DNA from: Lineolata rhizophorae
Taxonomy: Eukaryota; Ascomycota; Dothideomycetes; Lineolatales; Lineolataceae
NCBI GenBank assembly: GCA_010093515.1
Contig: MU001670.1
Location: 1,828,003 to 1,892,002, forward strand
DNA length: 64,000 nucleotides
Reading direction: 5' to 3'
Part shown: piece by piece, positions 16,869 to 30,831 of the stretch
Position numbering within the stretch: position 1 is the first letter of the stretch
How the letters are laid out: each line of letters begins with the position of its first letter
Program-made: the position numbers and the translations under genes
The notes under the pieces: model-generated
The model's input: the letters and a program-made list of their open reading frames with translations, nothing else
Told to the model about the DNA's origin: nothing
Database searches by the model: none

Positions 16869-18193
16869 ATGCGCTTCAAGGCGCAGATCCACAATGTATC
16901 TACCTTCTCCAGTGAGCTACTCGTGCGATATCTATCACAATATCTACAGCACATGTACTGAACAGTTCTCAGAATTTGCGGCGTCATTGGCTTCCTTGGG
17001 ACCCGTCGCGTGGGTTCGCCTGAGTGACAGTGACGTCCGCTTTACTGTGATTCCAGAGCAAGGGACCCAAGTATGGTCGTATGTACGAACCCATCGCTCC
17101 ATGAAACCTACCGCTGATGATCTTTTAGTGTGCTTGCCGTCGTGCGTTGTCCACATTAACCCCGCACTGCGAACGTCCTGTTTGCCTGACGTGCTTATAG
17201 GATACAGTCTTCGAGACGCACACAATCCAATCAGCCGCTGGGAATATCATCAATCTAGAGATACCCATAGCCCAACTTCATCGCGCCCTTAAATCCGCCC
17301 TCTCGGCCACCTCCGCCTCCATCCGCCTCACTAAGAAGGACGGTGTACCCATTCTCTGTCTCACTATCACCTCTTCCTCCCTCAGCACCAGCTCCTTCAA
17401 CCGCGACGCGGACGATGATGAAAACACGGGTGGAGGCAGTGGCCCGCACACACAGTCGTTTGACATGGCGACCGGAGGGCAGCATCGAGCGCGCGAAACT
17501 ATCGTTACGCAGGACATCCCCATTCGCGTTCTCAGCCCGGAAAGCGTCGAGGGGATCCACGAGCCACGATGCCGCGAGCCCGACGTGCACATCTACTTGC
17601 CAGACTTGCTGCAGGTTAAGAGCATCTCGGATCGCTTCACACGCATGGCGGCCGCCGTGCGGGGCGGCTCTGCAACGTCTGCAGCGTCATCAGGCCCGCG
17701 GCTCGAAATGGCGGCGAACATGCACGGATGTCTCAGACTGAGCATTCGCACAGACTCTATGAACGTTTCGAGTGTGTGGATAGGACTTTCACATCCGCAG
17801 CTGGACCCGGAGCTGTTAGAGGGCGGACTTGCAGAGCATCCATCGACGCGGATGAAGCAACTAGGTTCCGCAGACGGGACTAGTGAGGAGGGCTGGTCGA
17901 CTGTGAGGATAGATGGGAAGGACTGGGGCAAAGTAATGAGCGTGGGCAGATTAGGTGGTAGGGTCATTGCGTGTAAGTCCTCAAAGAGTACCACTAAGCG
18001 TTCAAGAGGCTACTGGTGTTCACTGACTGATCCAGGCTTCTGTGACGACCACGCATTAATTTTATATGTGTTTCTTAGTGGTGAGGATGAGCAGGAGTCG
18101 GTATTAACGGTAGGATAAAGACCCTATATTCAATTCACAGTTTGAGCATGCACTTACTCTTTTTAGTATTACATTAGTTCATATAGCGCCTGA
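16869..18193 (+). CDS. HUS1: Checkpoint clamp subunit HUS1 (9-1-1 complex)
   Basis: PCNA-like subunit of the Rad9-Rad1-Hus1 DNA damage clamp, 344 aa, nuclear. Six exons: 16869-16911, 16973-17078, 17129-17141, 17201-17972, 18036-18109 and 18167-18193. The third exon is 13 nt and encodes only S-VLAV; without it the frame breaks before DTVFETHTIQSAAG. The N-terminus MRFKAQIHNVSTFSKF and the end LTYYISSYSA (partly in a 27 nt last exon) are hallmarks of Hus1. The long middle exon has the two clamp domains with a Ser/Gly/Asp-rich insertion around DADDDENTGGG. It shares its promoter with PUP2. Confidence 0.93.
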
Positions 18194-21100
18194 ACTGGTG
18201 TCCCGAAATGGCTGTTAACGCCAGCGTACGAAATAACCGTAGTGTACGAACTACGGCTACTGTGTGGTTATATTTATTTATCTCTGTTGCAATGTGAGCT
18301 TTATCCTCGTTAAATATCCGATCTCCTAGATATAGGCCCGATATATCAAGTTTGACCGGATTCCTTAAAATTGCTGATAAGTTGGCGTATGTCGATCGGA
18401 AGCACTCGGTCCATATCTTGGCTTTCTCGATGAGAACCGTCTTTATTCAAACGTTCTGACTTCATTTCGTGGATTATCAACACTGGTATCACCAGCAGCC
18501 ATGACGCCTCCTCGTGACGTTTTAGCGATTCAACACACTTCCTCAACAATGGCATATGTTATGGGATCATTTCAGTCTTAAAGTATTGGGTCAGTCCGGT
18601 GCATTATTGCTTCTACTATATCCAGGAGATGCTTTACCTTTCTAAATATGGGCGTTGGTCCGAATTAGAATGAAACCGCAGTATCACAAGGCGGTCTTTA
18701 CGTCGCGGAGAATATCATCAAAAATAGCTAAGGCAGATGTGACGCGATACAAAATTTAAAGGCATTGCCTTCGCTGTAAAAAGAAACGGGCAATGCGCCA
18801 TGGTAACAGTGAGCTGTGCGCGGTGCTAAGGGGCTCAAGACAAGATCTGCGAAGGACTGACTGCTACCTGGTGCAGTAGTTTTCAGGATGAGGGAGGCCC
18901 CACGAATTCAGCCCCGATACTGCGCTATGCCCCGGATGGCTGCATTAGGCGAAGACCTGCCAGTGTGGGAGTGTCTGTGTGACTCGGCTGCAATTTCCAA
19001 TTGAAAACAACGAGGGGTGACTGGAACCCGTTGTCACAAGCATTGATAAGAACACTCAAAGCAAGATAGAATATTTCATTACGCATGTGAACGTTGCCGG
19101 GCATTGCCTGCAAGAATTCTGATACGAGAGCAGAGCGGTGGTCGTGCGAATTACTTGTGCTAAAGGGAGGAGCCCGACACATCGTCAATCGGATTGGAGC
19201 ATATTGTTGGACACACAAAATGGCTAAGCATGATTCACTAGTCTGAATGGTTTTGATCTCTGGAAAACCCAACGTCTAGAGATCCACTTGATGACTGGAA
19301 GGCGAAGAGTCTCGATGTTGTAGGCGGAGCAAAGCTGAACACAGCCATTGACGTTTGTCCAATGCTGCCTTGCGGCCATGCTGGCCCCAGTGGGAGTCCC
19401 AGTCACCAACAATGACTTGACCTGATGGGGGATACGAAAACTCATACTGGAAGCACAACATACACATGAAGGGCAGGACCGTGGATCTCGGCCATGGCGA
19501 CGGGAGTATGTAATACAGGGGATGATCGACATACTTACCCGCGTATCGGATATGCGGTGGAGCATCGCGCCAAGAATAGAAGGAAGCGTCCAATCGGCCT
19601 TGCGCCCGGCTAGGGAACGCGCCGTCCGATCACCGTCGCATTTTCGGCGGGGATACAAGAGAAAAAAGCCTCCTGATTCTGGACGGTTAGAAAAGTCCGG
19701 ATACCGCCGACCAAAGAGAAGGACGGTCGCCGACCCGAATGGTGTACTAGGACGGAGTACGCTCCCGTACAGGGAACCTGCCTGCCATATTACGGTGTAC
19801 AGTAGCACCGTAGCACCGCCTCGCAAGAGCGCAACCAACCCGCGGCTCAGCCCTATCGCGGTACGCTGGCCAATGAGTGCGAGCTTCGCGCTTACTATCG
19901 TGCCGAGGAACCCTGCTGCCGCCGTCGCCATTGGCCGGTCCCGCTTACGAGCGCATCGTCATTTCGGCATTCGCTGCTATTTCTGACCACCATTTCCTGG
20001 CGCTCTGGGTCATGGTGGTCTGTCTGGTTGGCGGGTGCTGGAGCTAAGCTCACGGACACAGCGGACACCAGCCTCAACCTTCGAAGCCACACCGAAGCCA
20101 CCTGAGGCAGGGCGTGGTGAGACATTTTGAGGAGGCTTGACCGCCCGGCGAACGGCTGCAGGGACGGCGTCTGCTGGGTCTCAGCGGTCCGCTCGGCTCC
20201 AAGCAGTGGCTAGAATGGCTAGTGCAGCGGCGTGCCACGGTAGAAATGGCGGTACGCCGGCGCGCAGGTCTGCGGCTCACCCGCGTGGGTCCCTGGTTCC
20301 TTCACCGCACAACGGCCACGATGGTACGTACCGTGTGCGGTTGCACTGTCGCTGCACCATCGCTACACTGTGTTTGCAGGCGGTCGCGCTTCCCTAGAAG
20401 TGGAGACATCTCCGCCCACCGTCGACATGACGTTGATTCTTTTTCTTTTTTTTTTTATGTGGTCATGGATGCGTGCAATAGAGGTTCAAGGGGGTCTCGA
20501 AGAAGAAGCTTTGGTACAGTAAGAGTCTTGATAGCCTTTGACGCCTCGGTCTGTAGGCTAGTAACAGAGGAAATTTTTCCCGGTTGGTGCTTTACAGGTC
20601 TAGAGCCACCAGCAATCAAGTTAGACTCATTTGGACTCATAAGGCTTGGCCTAAGCGTCCTGCGAAACAATTTCGGACCCTTCCATTGTGCGTGGGCTTT
20701 GTGAGTACGCGTGGCGCACTACTACGTAGACCTCTGATCGACACGCACCACCCCGCCGTTGCACCAAGCATGCAGCCTCGATCTCACCTCCATCTACGTT
20801 GCGATCGACAAAAGTCGTGGAGTGTGCCTTGTCAATCGTGCCGGATTGCGATCGGCGGACAATGGCGCCTGTCTCGGCCACTGAGGGTGGCCCTTTCAAA
20901 GAGGCCGCGATATACTATAGTTACTCGTCCAACGAGAATTCAGAAATTGTATTTGTCGGCCCCCGTTTTAAAGTGGGCTTCAGGTACCCTTGCGGAAGAT
21001 CGCCTTGCTTATACAAGCCCCCTCTGGGGGCCCCGGAACATGGTCCACTTGAGATATGCCAGCGCTCAAGCACACAAGGCTATATGCAGTCGCAAAAACA

Positions 21101-22904
21101 TGTGATGATAGTCGATCCCAATTGCGTGGTCTTACGCAAAGCGAAAAGCGATGGGGAGCTATTCAGTCGTGCATTCCCGCTCGACGAGCAGTGTTCGGGG
21201 CGCAAACGAAGGAGTCAGCAAGTCGCGGCGAAGCCGAACGACAAGAGGCGTTGGAGACCGCACGCGCTAGGAAGCAAAGAGAAGTCAGTGACGCTTTGCC
21301 CGCGTCGGGGCGCTCTTGTCGCAACGCTTGGGCGGAGTGGGCTACAGGTGATTGTGAGCAATAGCGCACAATGACGTCCACGAAAATGACGCACAAGAAA
21401 TCCGAGCGCCTGGCGTCGAGTTCTAGACTCGGTCGACAAGCGCCATGCGGAGCTGGAAGGGTACGAAGCGCATGGTGGATGCACGCATCAAGTCAGTCGT
21501 GATTAAGGTGTCCCGGGGGTGAGTAGACCCGTAGGCCAATCTCGAGAGCCGCTATTTCTGCGCGTTGGAGTCGCCTAAAGACTGACAAATCGCGCTCGAT
21601 GCGTGGATAAGGTAGGTCCTGGTGCAAGCAACCTCGGCGATTCGGTGCGGGGAAAGACGCGAAGGGCGCGCGCCCGGCGGACCTCTTCAATCCTGACCTC
21701 ACAGCCAACGAGAGCGGAGGATAGCATTTCCGCTTCGAGGGGGCGCACACAGGACTTGGCTCCGCCCACGTGTCGAGCTGCAGCAAAGGCGCAGAAGACG
21801 GCGCCAGGGGGTGTTGCCAGCGGGAGGGGTGCTCAGGCATCTGAGGCTCTCCCGCGAAGACGACGACGGAGACGGCGCCGCTCTTCGACCCGTGCGACAC
21901 TGTTCTGATCCCAAAGGAAGGGGCCCGGTTCCCGGGAGCGGGTACGGCGAGGACGGGAATGTCGCAACAGGAACCACGGCTCCGCCAAAGCTGAGGACCG
22001 CGTTTCATCGGGGCAGACTGGGCGAGGGACTCCGGACCCGCGTGTGGAGCGGAACGAGATGTCACGGTCCCACCGGCTCGTCGACGTCGAGACGGGGCAT
22101 GGGGGTCTAGGATCGCGTGCAGTGCCTTCCAGCGCAGTGCCTTCCAGCGCAGTGCCTTCCCAGCGCAAGTTTTGCCGCTACAAAAAAGGACATGTTTCCC
22201 GTTTGGGGCAGGTGCAACGGGCCTCTTGGCGAGCCTTGCGCACAGAGAGGGTCCCAAAAACAGAAACAGCCGGCCCCCATGTCCATCACGTCGCGCCCGG
22301 GGGGACGGCACCGGTGCCGGGCGCGCGGTGCCACCAAGCAGCCACCGCTCTGTGGCTGGAGCCCGCCGAGGCGACGAGACCACGGACCCTTTGTGCGGCG
22401 CACCCGCACGCGCGCTCCTCGTTCGTCCCGCCTTTTGCATCGCGTAGCTGCGCGGGCCCGTGGCAGTGTACTGTAGATTGCGCCCGCGCGCCCTCGGAGC
22501 CGCGGCGGGCCAGGCCGTGGACCACGCGAAACGGCGCAACGGTTGCGCCATCCACGGGGCCCGGAGGGACTGAGACTGACTGCGCGATCGCACGACGCGA
22601 GCTGGGGATCCCAGCGGCCAGGGTTGCTGCGGGCGGGAACGCGAGCGCGTGCGTCCGCCGGGCTACGAGCCTGCTGAACCCGGCCTGCTTCACACCCAGG
22701 CGTGGCCGATGCTGAGCTTAGCTCCCGTGAGGCTTGGGCTCATTGATGACTAGGTCGGAGCATTTGGGAGCCTGCGCAGGGGCCTGTGGCCCTACCCACC
22801 CCTGGCGCCACCGTCCCTGCCGTTGGGGCTCTGCCTTGAGGTGCGACGCTAGTGAGAGTGAGATAGCACCAGCCAGCAGTCAAATCGCCCTCTCTTCAGG
22901 CACC
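18194..22904. other. 4.7 kb gene desert upstream of the micropeptide unit
   Basis: I see no convincing protein gene between HUS1 and the TATA box at 22905. AT-rich sequence (18.2-19.3 kb) passes into mixed and then very GC-rich DNA (about 21.6-22.75 kb). In the GC-rich part frames are open on both strands over the same bases, as expected from stop-codon scarcity and not from coding. A short minus-strand frame at 18346-18555 reads like protein (LLRKCVESLKRHEEASWLLV) but is isolated and not recognised. The size and position fit a long regulatory region for the downstream unit, though this is inference. Confidence 0.45.
22121..22166 (+). repeat. Three tandem copies of a 15-16 bp unit
   Basis: AGTGCCTTCCAGCGC is repeated twice exactly and a third time with one extra C, followed by unrelated sequence. 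It lies about 0.75 kb upstream of the TATA box of the micropeptide unit. It may be a repeated factor-binding site or a simple minisatellite. Confidence 0.85.
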
Positions 22905-22911
22905 TATATAA
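22905..22911 (+). promoter_or_regulatory. TATA box of the micropeptide unit
   Basis: TATATAA in CCTATATAACG, directly after GC-rich DNA and directly before a long C/T-rich, AUG-free leader. Transcription would start some 30-80 nt downstream, about 22940-22990. A strong TATA box suggests a highly regulated gene. Confidence 0.6.
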
Positions 22912-23409
22912 CGACCTTTAGGGTTTCGCTCAAGGCAGACGTTCAGACCATCATCATCCACTCTCAGCACTGTTCACAAGACCACGCTTCCAACTACACT
23001 TCTCTCGCTTCCAATTCGTTCGAGCGTTTCCTTCTGTTTCCGCGCCGCGCACTTGTCTTTTATCCAGCTGCTTTCCCACACAACCACAATCCGCTTTCCG
23101 CAGCTAGGCACGCTTCAGTCACCAGGCATCGACCGAGTCATAAATTATTCGCGAGTATCGCCTTCTTTAATTTTTGCTCTCTCCGCCCTTCAGCTTTCAG
23201 TGTTCTTCAGGCTTTCCATTTCACCGGAAAGCGTTCGAGTCATCCTCTTTTCCTGTTCCGAGTCCGAATTTTCCTCTATTTTCTTACCGTTGTACTCTTC
23301 TCGGACTCCCTCTCCGTCAGCTTGATACTATATATCAAGCGTCTTCCTCTCGTCTCAATCAACCACTTTCACCGCACTCTACCTTTCTCTTCTTTGAGTT
23401 CAGTCAGCC

Positions 23410-23433
23410 ATGGGTCGCGGCGGCTACAACTAA
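23410..23433 (+). CDS. Micropeptide ORF 1, MGRGGYN
   Basis: Seven-codon ORF ending in TAA. It opens at the first ATG after the TATA box, more than 470 nt into the leader, in a strong context (CAGCCATGG). Codons are GGT CGC GGC GGC TAC AAC after the ATG. The peptide is small, basic and Gly/Tyr-rich with no signal sequence; a role is unknown. Recurrence of the same peptide with other codons downstream is the reason to call it coding. Confidence 0.6.
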   Translation: MGRGGYN

Positions 23434-23597
23434 AGCCCATCTTCTCTCACGCAAAGCTTTTGAAGCATCTCACAGAGAGAGCACTTGAACCTTCGACCAT
23501 TAACCACACATCGAGCCAACACCACTCGACTCCTGTTTCGAGAATTCCATCCACTCAACTCAACAACATCACACTACTCACCATCACCGTCTTCACC

Positions 23598-23621
23598 ATG
23601 GGCCGGGGCGGGTACAACTAA
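23598..23621 (+). CDS. Micropeptide ORF 2, MGRGGYN
   Basis: Second seven-codon ORF with the identical peptide, 164 nt after the stop of ORF 1, again in a good context (TTCACCATGG) and ending in TAA. Compared with ORF 1, three of six sense codons after the ATG differ (GGC/GGT, CGG/CGC, GGG/GGC), all silently. The flanking sequences of the two ORFs are not alike, so this is not a recent tandem duplication. Confidence 0.6.
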   Translation: MGRGGYN

Positions 23622-23705
23622 GTTGTATTCATTCCACACCGTCCTATTTTTATCCGCACAACCACATCTCGTGTCATCCAGACGATAACTATCGTCACCG
23701 TTCCG

Positions 23706-23732
23706 ATGCTCGGCCGCGGAGGTTACAGCTGA
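23706..23732 (+). CDS. Micropeptide ORF 3, MLGRGGYS
   Basis: Third ORF, eight codons plus TGA, 84 nt after ORF 2. It keeps GRGGY with codons GGC CGC GGA GGT TAC and varies at both ends (an extra Leu after Met, Ser for Asn). The start context (TTCCGATGC) is weaker than in ORFs 1 and 2, which would fit a last cistron reached by few ribosomes. Confidence 0.5.
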   Translation: MLGRGGYS

Positions 23733-24000
23733 TTCCCGGGTTGGATTTGGGCTGGACATATGGAGGCTTTCTGTTTTCTTCTCGTTTGTTGTTGTAATGC
23801 TTTGGAGGGAGGAATAGAGGCTCGCGGCCCTAGCGGCTTGCTGAGCTTCCCCAACCAGCTGGCATGGCGTTGGGTCGTTTGCCATTTTGAGCGTTCATTG
23901 CATAGCGTGGACTGGTTTCGTTTGCGTTCTCGTTTTGGTTTTCTTTCTCGCTTCGGCATTTATTCCTGTTTCTTAATGTTTTTCTCGTACTTTGTCCAGC

Positions 24001-24265
24001 GTTATTTGCATCTTCGTCGTCATTGGTTTACTTCCCTTCCATTCATTCTTTTACTTCGTCTTCACAACTCTTCCCCTTCAATTTATTCTCCTCTTCGCAC
24101 GATTTCTAATTCAACTTTTGCTTTCCAGCGTAGCATTTCAGGCGCTTGGGAGGGTCTAGATATTTATTTCGACAACATTTCCTACTATTCGCCTTCACTG
24201 AATTTTTGTCTCGTTTCGAATTTGGACTTTATTTTCCGACGCAGAACCTGTGGGGCGCAACTTTG
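24001..24265. other. Intergenic, probable 3' region of the micropeptide unit
   Basis: T-rich sequence between the micropeptide unit and the MSS1 stop codon. A frame from 23760 to 24296 (178 codons) spans it, but its product is rich in Phe, Ser, Leu and Arg as chance translation of T/C-rich DNA would be, and it runs into the MSS1 last exon on the other strand. I do not call it a gene. Confidence 0.4.
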
Positions 24266-26520
24266 TCAGTGCATGAAGTTAGAAATCCCGAAATAGCTAC
24301 TCGAGAGCCCGACAAACTGCCTTCCCAATTCCCATTTTTTTAAAAAAAAATTAAAAAAAAAAAGGAGGGCGAACGGGGAGAAGGGCGATACGAACTTTTC
24401 AAAAACCACCCCCAGCACCTCCTCCACATCTCCAGCCTCGCCCATACCAGTAATACGGGCTAGACAATCGGCCGCACCTCGCAGGCTCTCTGCCGCGAGC
24501 ACGATGTCGATGTCGGCGTCGACATCTCCGCATGCGAAGCCATCTTCATGCTCTCCGCCGACCGCGGTGAGAAAGTCGCGTAGGTGAGCCGAACAGTCCT
24601 CGAGGAGGAGTCGATGCCGCTCGGTGGCGCTCAGCGACTCCTGCCACACAGAAGGATCGGCCCCCGCTGTGTCACTGTCGGCGACATCTAGAACTAGGGG
24701 GCACGTGATATCTCTAAAAACCCCGACAAGACCCTGTAGAAATTGCTGGATGTTCCCTGCATCACATGTGCTCCGTCCGATTTCAGGTTCGCTAGCTGCC
24801 TTGCACGAGACGGTAAAGACTTTCTCCGGTGGGAGTGGCGATAGCACGTCCCCAATTTGCTTTTGCAGGTGTGCTTTGAAGGCCCGGATGCCCTCCGGGC
24901 CGCTAGGATAGTCTGGCACTAGATCCATCTTGTTAACAGCGACGACGACGTTCTGCTTCTCAACGATGCATCTACGTGCCGTCTCAGCCACTTCTGGGTC
25001 AATATCTAAGCGAATCTCGCCTGAAGATGCCTCTCGATGCAGGCACAAGACAACGATGACCACGTCAGATGCCAGGGCGCGTTGCTTGGCGCGCTTGATA
25101 CCCTCCTGCTCCACCTCGCCCACCATCGAATCAAGCACCCTGTCCAGGCCACGCACGTTCTGCCCAGATGCACCGGCCATAGGCGGCCCCGGCATCGTGT
25201 CCTGCACCCCCGCCTCAGCCTCCACCCGAGCTACCGCCCTCCGTAGCCCCGCCATATCACCCAGCTTACAGTACCACCCGCCGATGTCGATTCCCACTTC
25301 GACCACGTCTCTCGTGGTGCCGGCTTCCTTACTCACGATGGCTGCCTCGCGTCCCACGACGCGGTTGAGCAGCGAGCTCTTACCGACATTGGGCGCGCCC
25401 AGCAGCGCCACGCCGATACCGCTACGCAGCATCTCGCCCCGCACGGCGTTAGCCGCGTGCGCATCGACGGCGCGCCGCAGCGCGCGCACCTGGCCTGCGA
25501 CGGAGCCCGCCAGCTGCACAGGTGACTCGTCGAAGTGTTGGTCCTCAGCGAAGTCGATCAGTGCCTCAAGCTCCGCGCGGGCGCGCAGCAGTGCCGCGCG
25601 CCACGCCTCGTAGCGCGCCGCGAGCGCGCCCTGCCCGCCGATGCTACTCATACCGCGCGTTGCCACGCGGCGCTGCATCTCAGTCGAGGCGGCCAGCGTG
25701 TCGCCGAGCGCCTCGATCTGCGTCACGTCGAGGCGGCCGTGCGCGAAAGCACGCCGCGTAAACTCGCCAGGTTCGGCGTAGCGGATGCGATGCGCGGGAG
25801 TCGGCTGGGAGGTGCGGCAGCGCGGGATGGCGGACAGGACGGCTTTGACGACGGCAGGACCGCCGTGGACGTGTAGCTCGAGAACGTCTTCGCCGGTGAC
25901 TGTACGAGGCGAGGGGAGGAAGAGGACGAGAGCCGAGAAGTCGAGGATGCCATCCTTGCTGGGTGGTGACGAGGGCGGTGCAGAAGGGTCGTAGAGGGTG
26001 CGAAGGGCAGCATACCGGGCTTTGGGAAAGGGCTGGTAGGGACAGAGAGAGCGGTAGATCTTAGATGCGGAATTGTGTTCAGCGCTAGTCACAGGCGGGG
26101 AAGATACTGAATGCGTGCGGGTAAGGAAAGAAAAAGTGGGCTTGAGGGAAAGCGTACGTCGGCGCAGGCTGGGCCGGATATGCGAATGACGGCTATCGCG
26201 GCTCGGCCAGGGGCGGTAGAGAGAGCGTAGATGGTGGAGTCGGCGTCGCTCATAGCGTAGGTGCCGGCGCACCGCTGGGACGGCGAAGGCGCTCCTCTCC
26301 TGCGCGCATCATAGCGGCGGCCGCTAAGCAGCAACGGCACGAACCGCGCATGGCTCGAGGCGGCAGGCAATGCTCCGGCGGCTCGCAGGGGTACGCGGGA
26401 CGCAGAAAAGGCACGACGGGGCCTGTCGAGGCCCAGAACGCGGCAGCAAGGGCAGCACAGACGGGAGGAGGCGTACAAGAGGGTTTTGGACGCGTCCAGA
26501 GCGCGGCTCCGTAGGTCCAT
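24266..26520 (-). CDS. MSS1: Mitochondrial tRNA-modification GTPase MSS1 (MnmE/TrmE family)
   Basis: With Mto1 it installs the xm5U34 wobble modification on mitochondrial tRNAs. About 693 aa. Exons on the minus strand are 26520-26158, 26059-24392 and 24316-24266. Exon 1 has an Arg/Ser-rich presequence and then STIYALSTAPGRAAIAVIR, the TrmE N-domain; the formyl-THF region continues in exon 2 (GEDVLELHVHGG, YAEPGEFTRRAF). G motifs are GAPNVGKSS, TTRDVVE, DMAG and NKMD. The family ends in Cys-(Ile/Val)-Gly-Lys. Here the best model is FEKF plus a 75 nt in-frame intron plus FVGLSSS, so the invariant Cys reads Phe. If the weak GTATCG donor is not used, 25 hydrophobic residues lie in between. Confidence 0.85.
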
Positions 26521-26840: not shown

Positions 26841-27948
26841 ATGGCCTCCGACGAGATCGTCTGGCAGGTCATCAACCAACAATTCTGTTCCTACAAGCTA
26901 AAGTATGTCAATCGCCGCCTATCGCGCTTCCGTCTACATAGGACCACCTCGAGCTAACCCCCCCCCTCCCCCTCGCCACCACTACCACAGAACCACCAAA
27001 GACCAGACTTTCTGCCGCAACGAATACAACGTTACAGGCCTCTGCGGCCGGCAAGCGTGCCCGCTCGCGAACTCGCGCTATGCGACCGTGCGCGCACACC
27101 CCGACACGGGCGCCCTGTACCTGTACATCAAAACGATCGAGCGCGCCCACACGCCCGCCAAGTGGTGGGAGCGCGTACGGCTCTCGCGCAACTACGCCAC
27201 GGCCCTGCAGCAGCTCGATGACCGTCTCGCCTACTGGCCCAAGTTCCTCGTCCACAAGTGCAAGCAGCGTCTCACCCGCCTGACCCAGGTCGCCATCCGC
27301 GCCAAGCGCCTCGCGCGGGAGGAGGACCGCCTTGGCGAGAGGCTGGTGCCGAAGCTCGCGCCAAAGGTGCGCCGCAGGGAGGCTACGAGGGAGCGCAAGG
27401 CTGAGGCGGCAGCTAAGGTTGAGAGGGCAATTGAGAGGGAGCTGGTCGAAAGGTTGAGGAGCGGCGCCTATGGCGACAGGCCGTTGAACGTGGAGGAGGC
27501 CGTTTGGAAGAAGGTGCTGAAAGGCCTGGAGCGCGAGGGCGACGGCATGCGGGATATGGATTTAGACGAGGGAATCGAGGAAGAGAAAGAGGAGGTAGAG
27601 GAAGAATGGGAGAAGGAAAATGGAGTTGGTGAGGTCGAGTACGTCAGCGACGTGGAGGAGTCGGACGACGAGGATGTCGCCGACTTGGAGGACTGGATCG
27701 GAGCAGAGAGTGACGAGGAGGGCGATGAGGAACCTGAAGACGACGAAGACGAAGAGACTGGGAAGCTGGACAAGGACATGGAAGATTCAACGGGCGAGCA
27801 GAAAAAGAGCCCGGCCACGCTCAAGAGGAAACGTCCCACCACGACGCGGCAGAACAAACCAAATAAGAAGGGAGGCAAAGGACCTAAGCGGAAGATCGAG
27901 TATGAGATTGAAAACGAACCGCCGGCGCGGCAAACTTTACTAGCGTAG
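26841..27948 (+). CDS. MAK16: Ribosome biogenesis protein MAK16
   Basis: Nucleolar factor of pre-60S (25S rRNA) assembly, 339 aa. Exons are 26841-26902 and 26991-27948; the 88 nt intron contains GAGCTAAC and separates MASDEIVWQVINQQFCSYKL from KTTKDQTFCRNEYNVTGLC. The conserved Cys residues (QQFCSYK, QTFCRNEYNVTGLCGRQACPL) probably bind the Fe-S cluster reported for the family. The ribosomal L28e-like N-domain is followed by a Lys/Arg helix (about 110-190) and a very acidic region (EEEKEEVEEEWEKE to EEPEDDEDEE), then a basic tail, as in yeast Mak16. Confidence 0.96.
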
Positions 27949-28346: not shown

Positions 28347-30831
28347 CTACGCCGAAGCCGCTGCTTGAGGAGGCCCATAGTGTACTTGTGGATTAGGTTC
28401 GCCCGGTGCCAAGAAGTTGGTCTGCGGATTCTTCGCCGCCTTCGCCACTGAACAGCGCGCCATTGTCGGTGAACTACATTGTGCAGTCAGCACACAATCG
28501 TTACCAGAAAAATATCAGTATAGTAGAAGCGGGTAGATGTATACCTTCGTGATATTGAATCGGTGAAAAAGAAGTTCTCAATAATCCTCTTGAACGGCTC
28601 ACCAGTAACCTTGCTGCCTTTGTTCTGATCCACCAGCTGAACCTTGCTAAGCGCAGAGAGGCTGGCCGGCTCTACTACATCGTAGCGGCGAAGCGCCGGC
28701 GAGATTTCTTCCATGCGGTCCCGAAGAGCCTCCACGTCATCATATGGAAGCGGCGTACCAACATACTCGCTAACTGCACGAACAATCTTCCAGTCCTCGC
28801 GCGCCGCGCCGTAGAGGGAGGTGGCTGCGCGGCCCATCTGTACACGGCCTTCGGTGTTTACGAAAGTACCAGACTTCTCAGTGTAAGCAGCCCCAGGAAG
28901 CACTACGTCAGCAAATTGAGCACCGCGGTCGCCGTGGTGTCCTTGATAGATGACAAAGGCCGCCTTAGGAATATCGGCCTCGGTGATCTCATCTGCACCG
29001 AGCAGCCAGATCATCTTGGGGACAGTAGAAGCAGTCGTTGGCGAAGGAACAGTAAAACCAACCTCGTACGCCGCTGAGCGCGAGGCGGCCCTCTGGAGGA
29101 CGTTGTAACCATTCCATTCAGGGGTCAGGAAGTTGGCTTTGTTTTTCTCAACGAAAGACCCCACCGTCTCAAAAATGACCTTCGCGTCTGGATGCTCAAC
29201 AGCACCACTACCCACGACGATCATTGGCTTCTTGGCGGCAGCAAGCTTCTTGCCGAAAGTCCCGGCGAGAGCTTCTTTCAGGGCCCCAACATCGGACCCT
29301 AGCTTCTCGTACTCGAATGTACTCTCGAAATCCTCACCAACGAGGCCTATCTCGAGATCGGAACGGATCCACTGCTTCCGAATGCGGGCATTCAAGCTTG
29401 CAGCTTCGTGGCGAGGGTTGGTTCCAACAAGAAGAATAGCATCGGCTTCCTCGACGCCGTAGATCTTCGAGTTGAACGTATAATTGGCCCGAACGTCGAT
29501 TCCGTGGGCGACGGGCTCGCTACCCTGCGGTTGATCTAGCGCTAGGTTCTCCGAGCCAAGCTTATTGAGCAGGTCCTTCAAGGCAACTAGCGACTCGGTT
29601 TCCACGAGATGACCCACGATGGCCTTGAACTCATCTCCCTTAGGAACTATACGTTGATACGCGTTCCCAATTTCGACCAACGCTTGTTCCCATGTCGCCG
29701 GCTGGAAAGAGTCATTTTGCCGGATTAGCGGAACCGTGAGGCGCTGGGTGCTAAGTCCATCACAGGCGAATCGTGATTTGTCGTTGATCCACTCCTCGTT
29801 AATGTCATCATTCAGGCGTGGCAAAATCCTCAAAACCTGTAGCCCTCTCGCATCCACTCGAATATTAGAGCCGAGACCATCCATAACATCGACAGTCTCG
29901 GTATGGTATAGCTCCCAAGGTCTCGCCTTGAACGCATACGGTTTTGAGGTAAGCGCACCGACGGGACACAGGTCGATGACGTTGCCCGACATCTCCGAGT
30001 CCAAGGCAGTCTCGAGATACGTGCCGATCTGCATGTTGTTTCCTCGGCCAGACGAGCCTAGTTCCGGCGCACCGGCGATATCGTTCGCGAATCGTACGCA
30101 ACGTGTGCAGTGAATACATCGATTCATCGACGTCTGTCAATTGTTAGACTAATTGGAGTATGTTGGCGGTATATAATTGCCATACCTTAATCAGGGGGCC
30201 AATGTTCTTGTCCTCAACAGCACGCTTGCCGCCGAGCTCGTGGAACCGACCACGGTCTGCGCCGTACCGCATTGACTGATCTTGCAGGTCACATTCACCT
30301 CCTTGGTCACAAATGGGGCAGTCCAACGGATGATTGGATAACAGGAACTCCATGATACCCTCTCGAGCCTTATGGACGAGCGGTGAGTCCGTCTTGACGC
30401 TCATTCCCGGCTGTACAGGCCAGGCACACGATGCGACCGGCTTTGGGGCTCTTTCAACCTCCACTAGACACATGCGACAGTTACCAGCGATCATGAGCTT
30501 CTCGTGATAGCAGTATCGGGGGATAGTGAGGCCGGCCTTCTCGCAGGCCTGGATCAAGGCGGAACCGGCTGGAGAAGGGCATGGTTAGCAGCGTATTCGA
30601 GTCAGGGGTCAAAGGCAGCATTTGACTAACCTTCAATGGATACCTTCTTTCCGTCTGCAGCAGATGTCAGTAAAGCGTCGTCCGCAAAATTCGGTCGTGT
30701 CGGGCGAACGCACCTATGGTGAGCTCCACGTCGGCTGGCCTTTGCGGCGTCGCATAAAAGCACCGGACGGCATTGAGACACGACCGCTTCTTCGGCCGGC
30801 CCAGCGAGCGAGCCAGATGCTGCCGCAGCAT
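28347..30831 (-). CDS. nuo-78: NADH:ubiquinone oxidoreductase 78 kDa subunit, mitochondrial (NDUFS1/nuo-78)
   Basis: Largest complex I subunit, with three Fe-S clusters in the electron-input arm; 746 aa. Exons on the minus strand are 30831-30714, 30654-30631 (24 nt), 30568-30186, 30133-28545 and 28473-28347. The start [16 protein letters not shown] is a mitochondrial presequence. Exons 2-3 rebuild [26 protein letters not shown]. Cluster ligands are in [35 protein letters not shown] and [13 protein letters not shown]. The last exon supplies SSPTMARCS and NPQTNF, the conserved C-terminus, which is missed if the intron is read through. Length agrees with the Neurospora homologue (about 744). Confidence 0.96.

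Follow-up and report, generated by a model that had tools for sequence, protein, structure and literature searches.

The closest described likeness to the locus presented here is found in the insect gene known as tarsal-less, polished-rice or mille-pattes, in which tandem tiny ORFs lie on one strand, are separated by short spacers and encode near-identical peptides. In Clogmia, tarsal-less encodes four repeated peptides of 10–29 aa that contain LDPTGXY, together with a 39-aa C-terminal peptide (PMC6124123). Its spacers measure 111, 126 and 334 nt, compared with 164 and 84 nt at our locus, whereas the repeated peptides are only 7–8 aa long here and share GRGGY, LDPTGXY being absent (PMC6124123). 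No tarsal-less-type C-terminal peptide with GREETSSCRRRR was seen by eye among the nine ATG ORFs of at least 20 aa located between positions 22500 and 24300. Since it lacks both the motif that defines the family and the final peptide, the locus is not a member of the tarsal-less family; that family belongs to another kingdom, and the likeness is one of architecture only. A first-pass annotation of this DNA had proposed tarsal-less as the nearest precedent, which is accurate with respect to the architecture but not with respect to membership, as neither LDPTGXY nor the C-terminal peptide is present.

Three groups of described fungal systems share other observed or predicted traits with the locus: (i) the uORF clusters of GCN4 and cpc-1, which combine very short ORFs and a long leader with scanning and reinitiation (PMC5487733); (ii) polycistronic RNAs, such as Glarea IGG1/IGG6 and those of mushrooms, with several ORFs per RNA (PMC10352335, PMC4503453); and (iii) KEX2-processed repeat proteins, in which near-identical short peptides are repeated within one gene (PMC6339444). 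Each of these also differs from the case described here. In GCN4 and cpc-1 an ORF for a transcription factor lies downstream, whereas here there is no recognisable main ORF, and a convergent MnmE-type gene follows. The polycistronic ORFs of the mushrooms described in PMC4503453 average 256 and 277 aa, in contrast to the 7–8 aa found here. The KEX2 type consists of one secreted precursor that is cut by KEX2 (PMC6339444), while every peptide of our locus is framed by a start and a stop of its own and lacks dibasic sites.

At the level of the peptide itself, the comparison is with RGG motifs, although the RGG occurs here singly, in a free heptapeptide and without an RNA-binding domain. RNA-binding proteins of the RGG-motif type carry several RGG repeats per chain; such repeats are absent here, as each peptide contains one Arg, no Lys and one RGG. 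The string GRGGYN is found inside a listed PY-NLS of Hrp1 (PMC9311884, PMC8140498), and the likeness to the Hrp1 PY-NLS and to RGG motifs is possibly due to chance.

The three ORFs and their surroundings

The 64-kb stretch of DNA that was analysed as a whole (hereafter the window) is fungal, to judge from the genes around the locus, and is taken to be from a filamentous ascomycete. The features of the locus and its neighbouring genes are the following:

22905–22911, + strand: TATATAA, putative TATA box, by string match
22935–23409, + strand: putative C/T-rich, G-poor leader without ATG, from composition and ATG positions, with a presumed transcript start
23410–23433, + strand: micropeptide ORF 1, MGRGGYN, read from the sequence and its translation
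23434–23597, + strand: spacer 1, 164 nt, A/C-rich with 11% G, without ATG
23598–23621, + strand: micropeptide ORF 2, MGRGGYN, with three synonymous differences from ORF 1
23622–23705, + strand: spacer 2, 84 nt, 13% G, without ATG
23706–23732, + strand: micropeptide ORF 3, MLGRGGYS, with a weak start context and a TGA stop
23733–24228, + strand: T-rich stretch as far as the convergent MSS1-like gene, putative 3′ region, from composition and the lack of a coding signal, with its limit placed by eye
24266–25678, − strand: MnmE-type GTPase (MSS1-like), by Pfam, converging on the locus from the right
26905–27948, + strand: MAK16, by Pfam and PDB sequence match
28487–30127, − strand: complex I 75–78 kDa subunit, by Pfam and PDB sequence match

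The first-pass annotation had described three tandem ORFs on one strand encoding MGRGGYN, MGRGGYN and MLGRGGYS, two of them with a start in strong context, behind a TATA box and a long C/T-rich leader, and all of these elements were recovered. The three ORFs are present, and their starts are the only three ATGs of the + strand between 22747 and 23759. In ORFs 1 and 2 the context is strong, position −3 being a purine and position +4 a G, whereas in ORF 3, with C at both positions, it is weak. TATATAA is indeed found at 22905, ahead of the ORFs, although on its own it is weak evidence, as it is one of seven occurrences in the window, which are spread over both strands (three on +, four on −). 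The composition of the leader over 22935–23409 (A 0.18, C 0.34, G 0.15, T 0.33) agrees with the C/T-rich description. The + strand is without ATG between 22746 and 23410, the longest ATG-free gap of either strand; however, 24% of the leader shuffles were equally without ATG, and since this is non-significant given the composition (P 0.24), the ATG-free leader was dropped as evidence for selection. Downstream of ORF 3 the sequence is T-rich (T 0.35–0.43). Along the locus, these shifts in base composition are compatible with a leader, then spacers that are scanned, then a 3′ region.

Some further observations concern the flanking DNA. The G+C content climbs to 0.61–0.72 immediately before the peptide locus (21400–22999) and next falls to 0.48, where the strands show a strong C/T skew. 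A tandem repeat with a 15-nt unit (3.2 copies, 97% matches) occupies 22119–22167, upstream of the TATA string. About 4.8 kb (18119–22904) separate the peptide locus from a Hus1-matching ORF, and none of the eight ORFs tested in this interval has a Pfam match. On the other side, the MSS1-like gene has, as judged by eye, an apparent short last exon and a preceding intron whose 5′ site, GTTCGT, is unusual (24229–24400, − strand). Because this short last exon seems to lie past the intron, 24266 is probably not the end of the gene; its stop would be at about 24229, again by eye, if one 3′ intron is assumed.

Likeness among the three copies

The codon pattern GGN-MGN-GGN-GGN-TAY-ARY-TRA, searched with at most two mismatches, has three matches in the 64-kb window, which are the three ORFs only; in 100 shuffles the same pattern was matched 0.14 times on average and never more than once. 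Independently of this pattern, triples were defined as non-overlapping ATG ORFs of 5–20 codons, lying within 500 nt, with a common pentapeptide. The real window contains one such triple on the + strand and none on the − strand. In 1500 simulated 64-kb windows of matched local composition, searched on both strands, the pentapeptide criterion yielded 187 pair entries and no triple, and the tetrapeptide criterion yielded one triple; a smaller simulation of 150 windows gave 0.13 pairs with a common 5-mer per window. The 20,000 local simulations of 22905–23760 produced three pairs with a common pentapeptide and no triple, as well as one triple with a common tripeptide, both this simulation and that of whole windows being composition nulls and not real fungal intergenic DNA. 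A chance origin of the likeness among the three ORFs is very unlikely.

Counts in other genomes were used as a rough yardstick only, because prokaryote DNA differs from fungal DNA. The background pattern was ATG-Gly-(Arg/Ser)-Gly-Gly-Tyr-Asn-stop, in which Ser is included because AGY was allowed. It has three matches in the genomes of 84,980 prokaryote species (one genome each) and three in 2.9 million viral contigs; four of these six matches carry Ser instead of Arg, and a second match is absent from the stretch around every one of them (0/6). Among the viral and prokaryote contigs, pattern scans for stray fungal contigs revealed no fungal locus of this type. A second pattern scan of the viral contigs gave no matches, and a MAK16 search of the same contigs gave seven pattern matches, none of which was confirmed.

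The way in which the copies differ bears on what has been kept. The three copies were aligned from the first common Gly codon to the stop, giving 21 columns, six of which are variable. Within the 15 nt encoding GRGGY, the variable positions are all four of the four-fold third positions (those of G, R, G and G), while the other 11 bases are constant (P 0.0007). Considered over the 21 columns, the six variable ones include all four four-fold sites (P 0.0025); the other two correspond to the change from Asn to Ser and to that from TAA to TGA, which is still a stop. The 60-nt flanks, on the other hand, resemble each other no better than shuffles in six out of six comparisons (lowest P 0.113). Recent tandem duplication was considered as a source of the copies and ruled out, the flanks being alike in none of these comparisons. 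Because the variation in GRGGY is limited to four-fold sites and the flanks are unrelated, the peptide was kept while neutral sites and flanks diverged. Selection acting on the peptide may reasonably be inferred, the test being small (three copies, six variable columns). The tandem micropeptide reading put forward in the first-pass annotation is supported as far as it says that the ORFs are kept at the peptide level, given the beyond-chance likeness, the four-fold variation, the unrelated flanks and the lack of rival ATGs or of a recognisable main ORF downstream.

Two other explanations of the likeness have to be weighed against the same data. The first is that it arose by chance, or that the ORFs are a relic without present function. 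The peptides are short, there are only three copies, and the simulations show that 5-mer pairs arise randomly (the 187 entries in 1500 windows), as does one 4-mer triple; yet no 5-mer triple was obtained in either the 1500 windows or the 20,000 local simulations, and the four-fold-site pattern speaks against this explanation as well, which we judge distinctly unlikely. The second is that the repeated unit is a DNA or RNA element, such as a protein-binding site, rather than a peptide. At the nucleotide level the locus does contain a 26-nt direct repeat, in which identity to the first copy is 88% and 65% for the two later ones. However, the differences fall at third codon positions, the replacement of TAA by TGA preserves the stop, and every copy has its in-frame ATG. 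Moreover, the RNA folding of 23380–23760 is ordinary (z −1.06) and none of the Rfam families attains its gathering score anywhere in the window, so that a DNA or RNA element appears highly improbable.

Candidate main ORFs and longer products

The ORFs had initially been described as lying in a region with no other gene, and this agrees with our results as far as Pfam sees, since none of ten neighbouring ORFs has a match at E 0.1; at E 0.001, the ORF at 22746–23621 was likewise without a match. Three long ORFs, at 22746–23621 (+), 23760–24296 (+) and 23574–23885 (−), were evaluated as genes and rejected, having no Pfam match and negative codon log-odds.

The second of these ORFs is relevant to the possibility that the micropeptide ORFs act in cis, through the nascent chain, termination or reinitiation, and in this uORF-like manner regulate either an ORF further downstream or the breakdown of the RNA that carries them. 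The sequence that holds the three ORFs is long and resembles a leader, short uORFs are familiar in fungi (PMC5487733), and the ATG ORF at 23760–24296 (+), which has 178 codons, starts 28 nt past ORF 3. Against its being the controlled ORF, it is without a Pfam match, it extends into the MSS1-like gene that converges on it, and it carries no coding signal, its frame scoring −6.016 and so not being the best of the three after ORF 3 (−6.002). Nor does 22905–24230 contain a strict 5′ splice site (GTRNGY), weaker splice sites being possible, of which the neighbouring MSS1-like gene appears, by eye, to use one. Because there is no Pfam domain, no strict intron signal and no credible main ORF between the TATA box and the MSS1-like gene, a uORF cluster is disfavoured, and we consider action in cis unlikely, though deserving of some weight.

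Codon use was scored for 12 gene ORFs within the window, leaving out in each case the ORF being scored. In all 12 genes the true frame scored between −5.69 and −5.92 and was ahead of the next frame by 0.11–0.32 bits per codon. The frame of ORFs 2 and 3 scored −5.97 to −6.02 across the locus, below every one of these genes. Up to ORF 2 it is ahead by merely 0.004–0.044 bits per codon, and past ORF 3 it has no lead. In between, over 23622–23732, which includes ORF 3, it leads by 0.16 bits per codon, which equals the level of some genes but concerns 37 codons only.

This frame is also poor in stops. Between 22746 and 24240 on the + strand it has two, both of which end the peptides, whereas the other two frames have 14 and 16, and a minimum that low was reached in 0.5% of 3000 order-2 Markov simulations (P 0.005). 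The scarcity of stops speaks for a reading in which ORFs 2 and 3 are the ends of longer products of the same frame with a non-AUG start, with ORF 1 as a uORF, and cpc-1 of Pezizomycotina provides a precedent for such a start (PMC5487733). This explanation, a rival still worth considering, is nevertheless hardly probable: the codon scores are below those of all 12 genes and the lead before ORF 2 is minimal, Pfam finds nothing in 22746–23621, ORF 1 is in a different frame, and the open frame extends upstream past the TATA box. Since the open frame passes the TATA box and its codon use is not gene-like, we take the scarcity of stops, which the polycistronic model leaves unexplained, as probably a coincidence.

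Proposed expression and significance

The reading that we favour, by a modest degree and on the basis of sequence features, is that of a compact polycistronic micropeptide gene that would be translated by reinitiation and whose peptides would act in trans. The RNA would start some tens of bases past the TATA box, and ribosomes would scan the ATG-free leader and make MGRGGYN at ORF 1. Scanning would resume over the G-poor spacer 1, with reinitiation 164 nt later giving the second MGRGGYN, and a partial third initiation at the weaker start, 84 nt further on, may give MLGRGGYS. Reinitiation after a short ORF has been described for uORF1 of Neurospora cpc-1 (PMC5487733), and for the IGG6 bicistrons of fungi it has been proposed on experimental grounds (PMC10352335).

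Under the favoured polycistronic model, the presence of several ORFs would raise the dose of one peptide, Gly-Arg-Gly-Gly-Tyr-(Asn/Ser). This peptide would act in trans, probably by filling the binding pocket of a partner protein, and the repetition would then be a matter of dosage. Conceivable partners are an import receptor and an arginine methyltransferase, because GRGGYN sits in the Hrp1 import signal and resembles RGG motifs, but naming them is speculation by analogy. A free peptide of seven residues is expected to have a short life, which counts against the model.

The first-pass annotation knew of no described fungal gene with such an architecture, and our searches of one open-access full-text library, which covers part of the literature, agree with this: neither MGRGGYN nor GRGGY in combination with micropeptide gave a match. 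The shorter string MGRGGY, in the full-text excerpts in which it occurs, belongs to FUS or FUS-derived sequences. In a study of Fusarium lncRNAs, the short ORFs reported are of 49–227 aa (PMC6094484).

Judging from the sequence, there is about an even chance that the locus represents a fungal family of polycistronic heptapeptide genes, which would encode some of the shortest genetically encoded regulatory peptides, would have originated independently of tarsal-less and would have been missed by gene finders. Such loci would escape gene finders because each ORF has only seven or eight codons. If true, this would mean that polycistronic micropeptide genes arose outside animals too, with peptides even shorter than the 10–29 aa repeats of Clogmia tarsal-less (PMC6124123), and that annotation discards a whole class of genes in fungal genomes.
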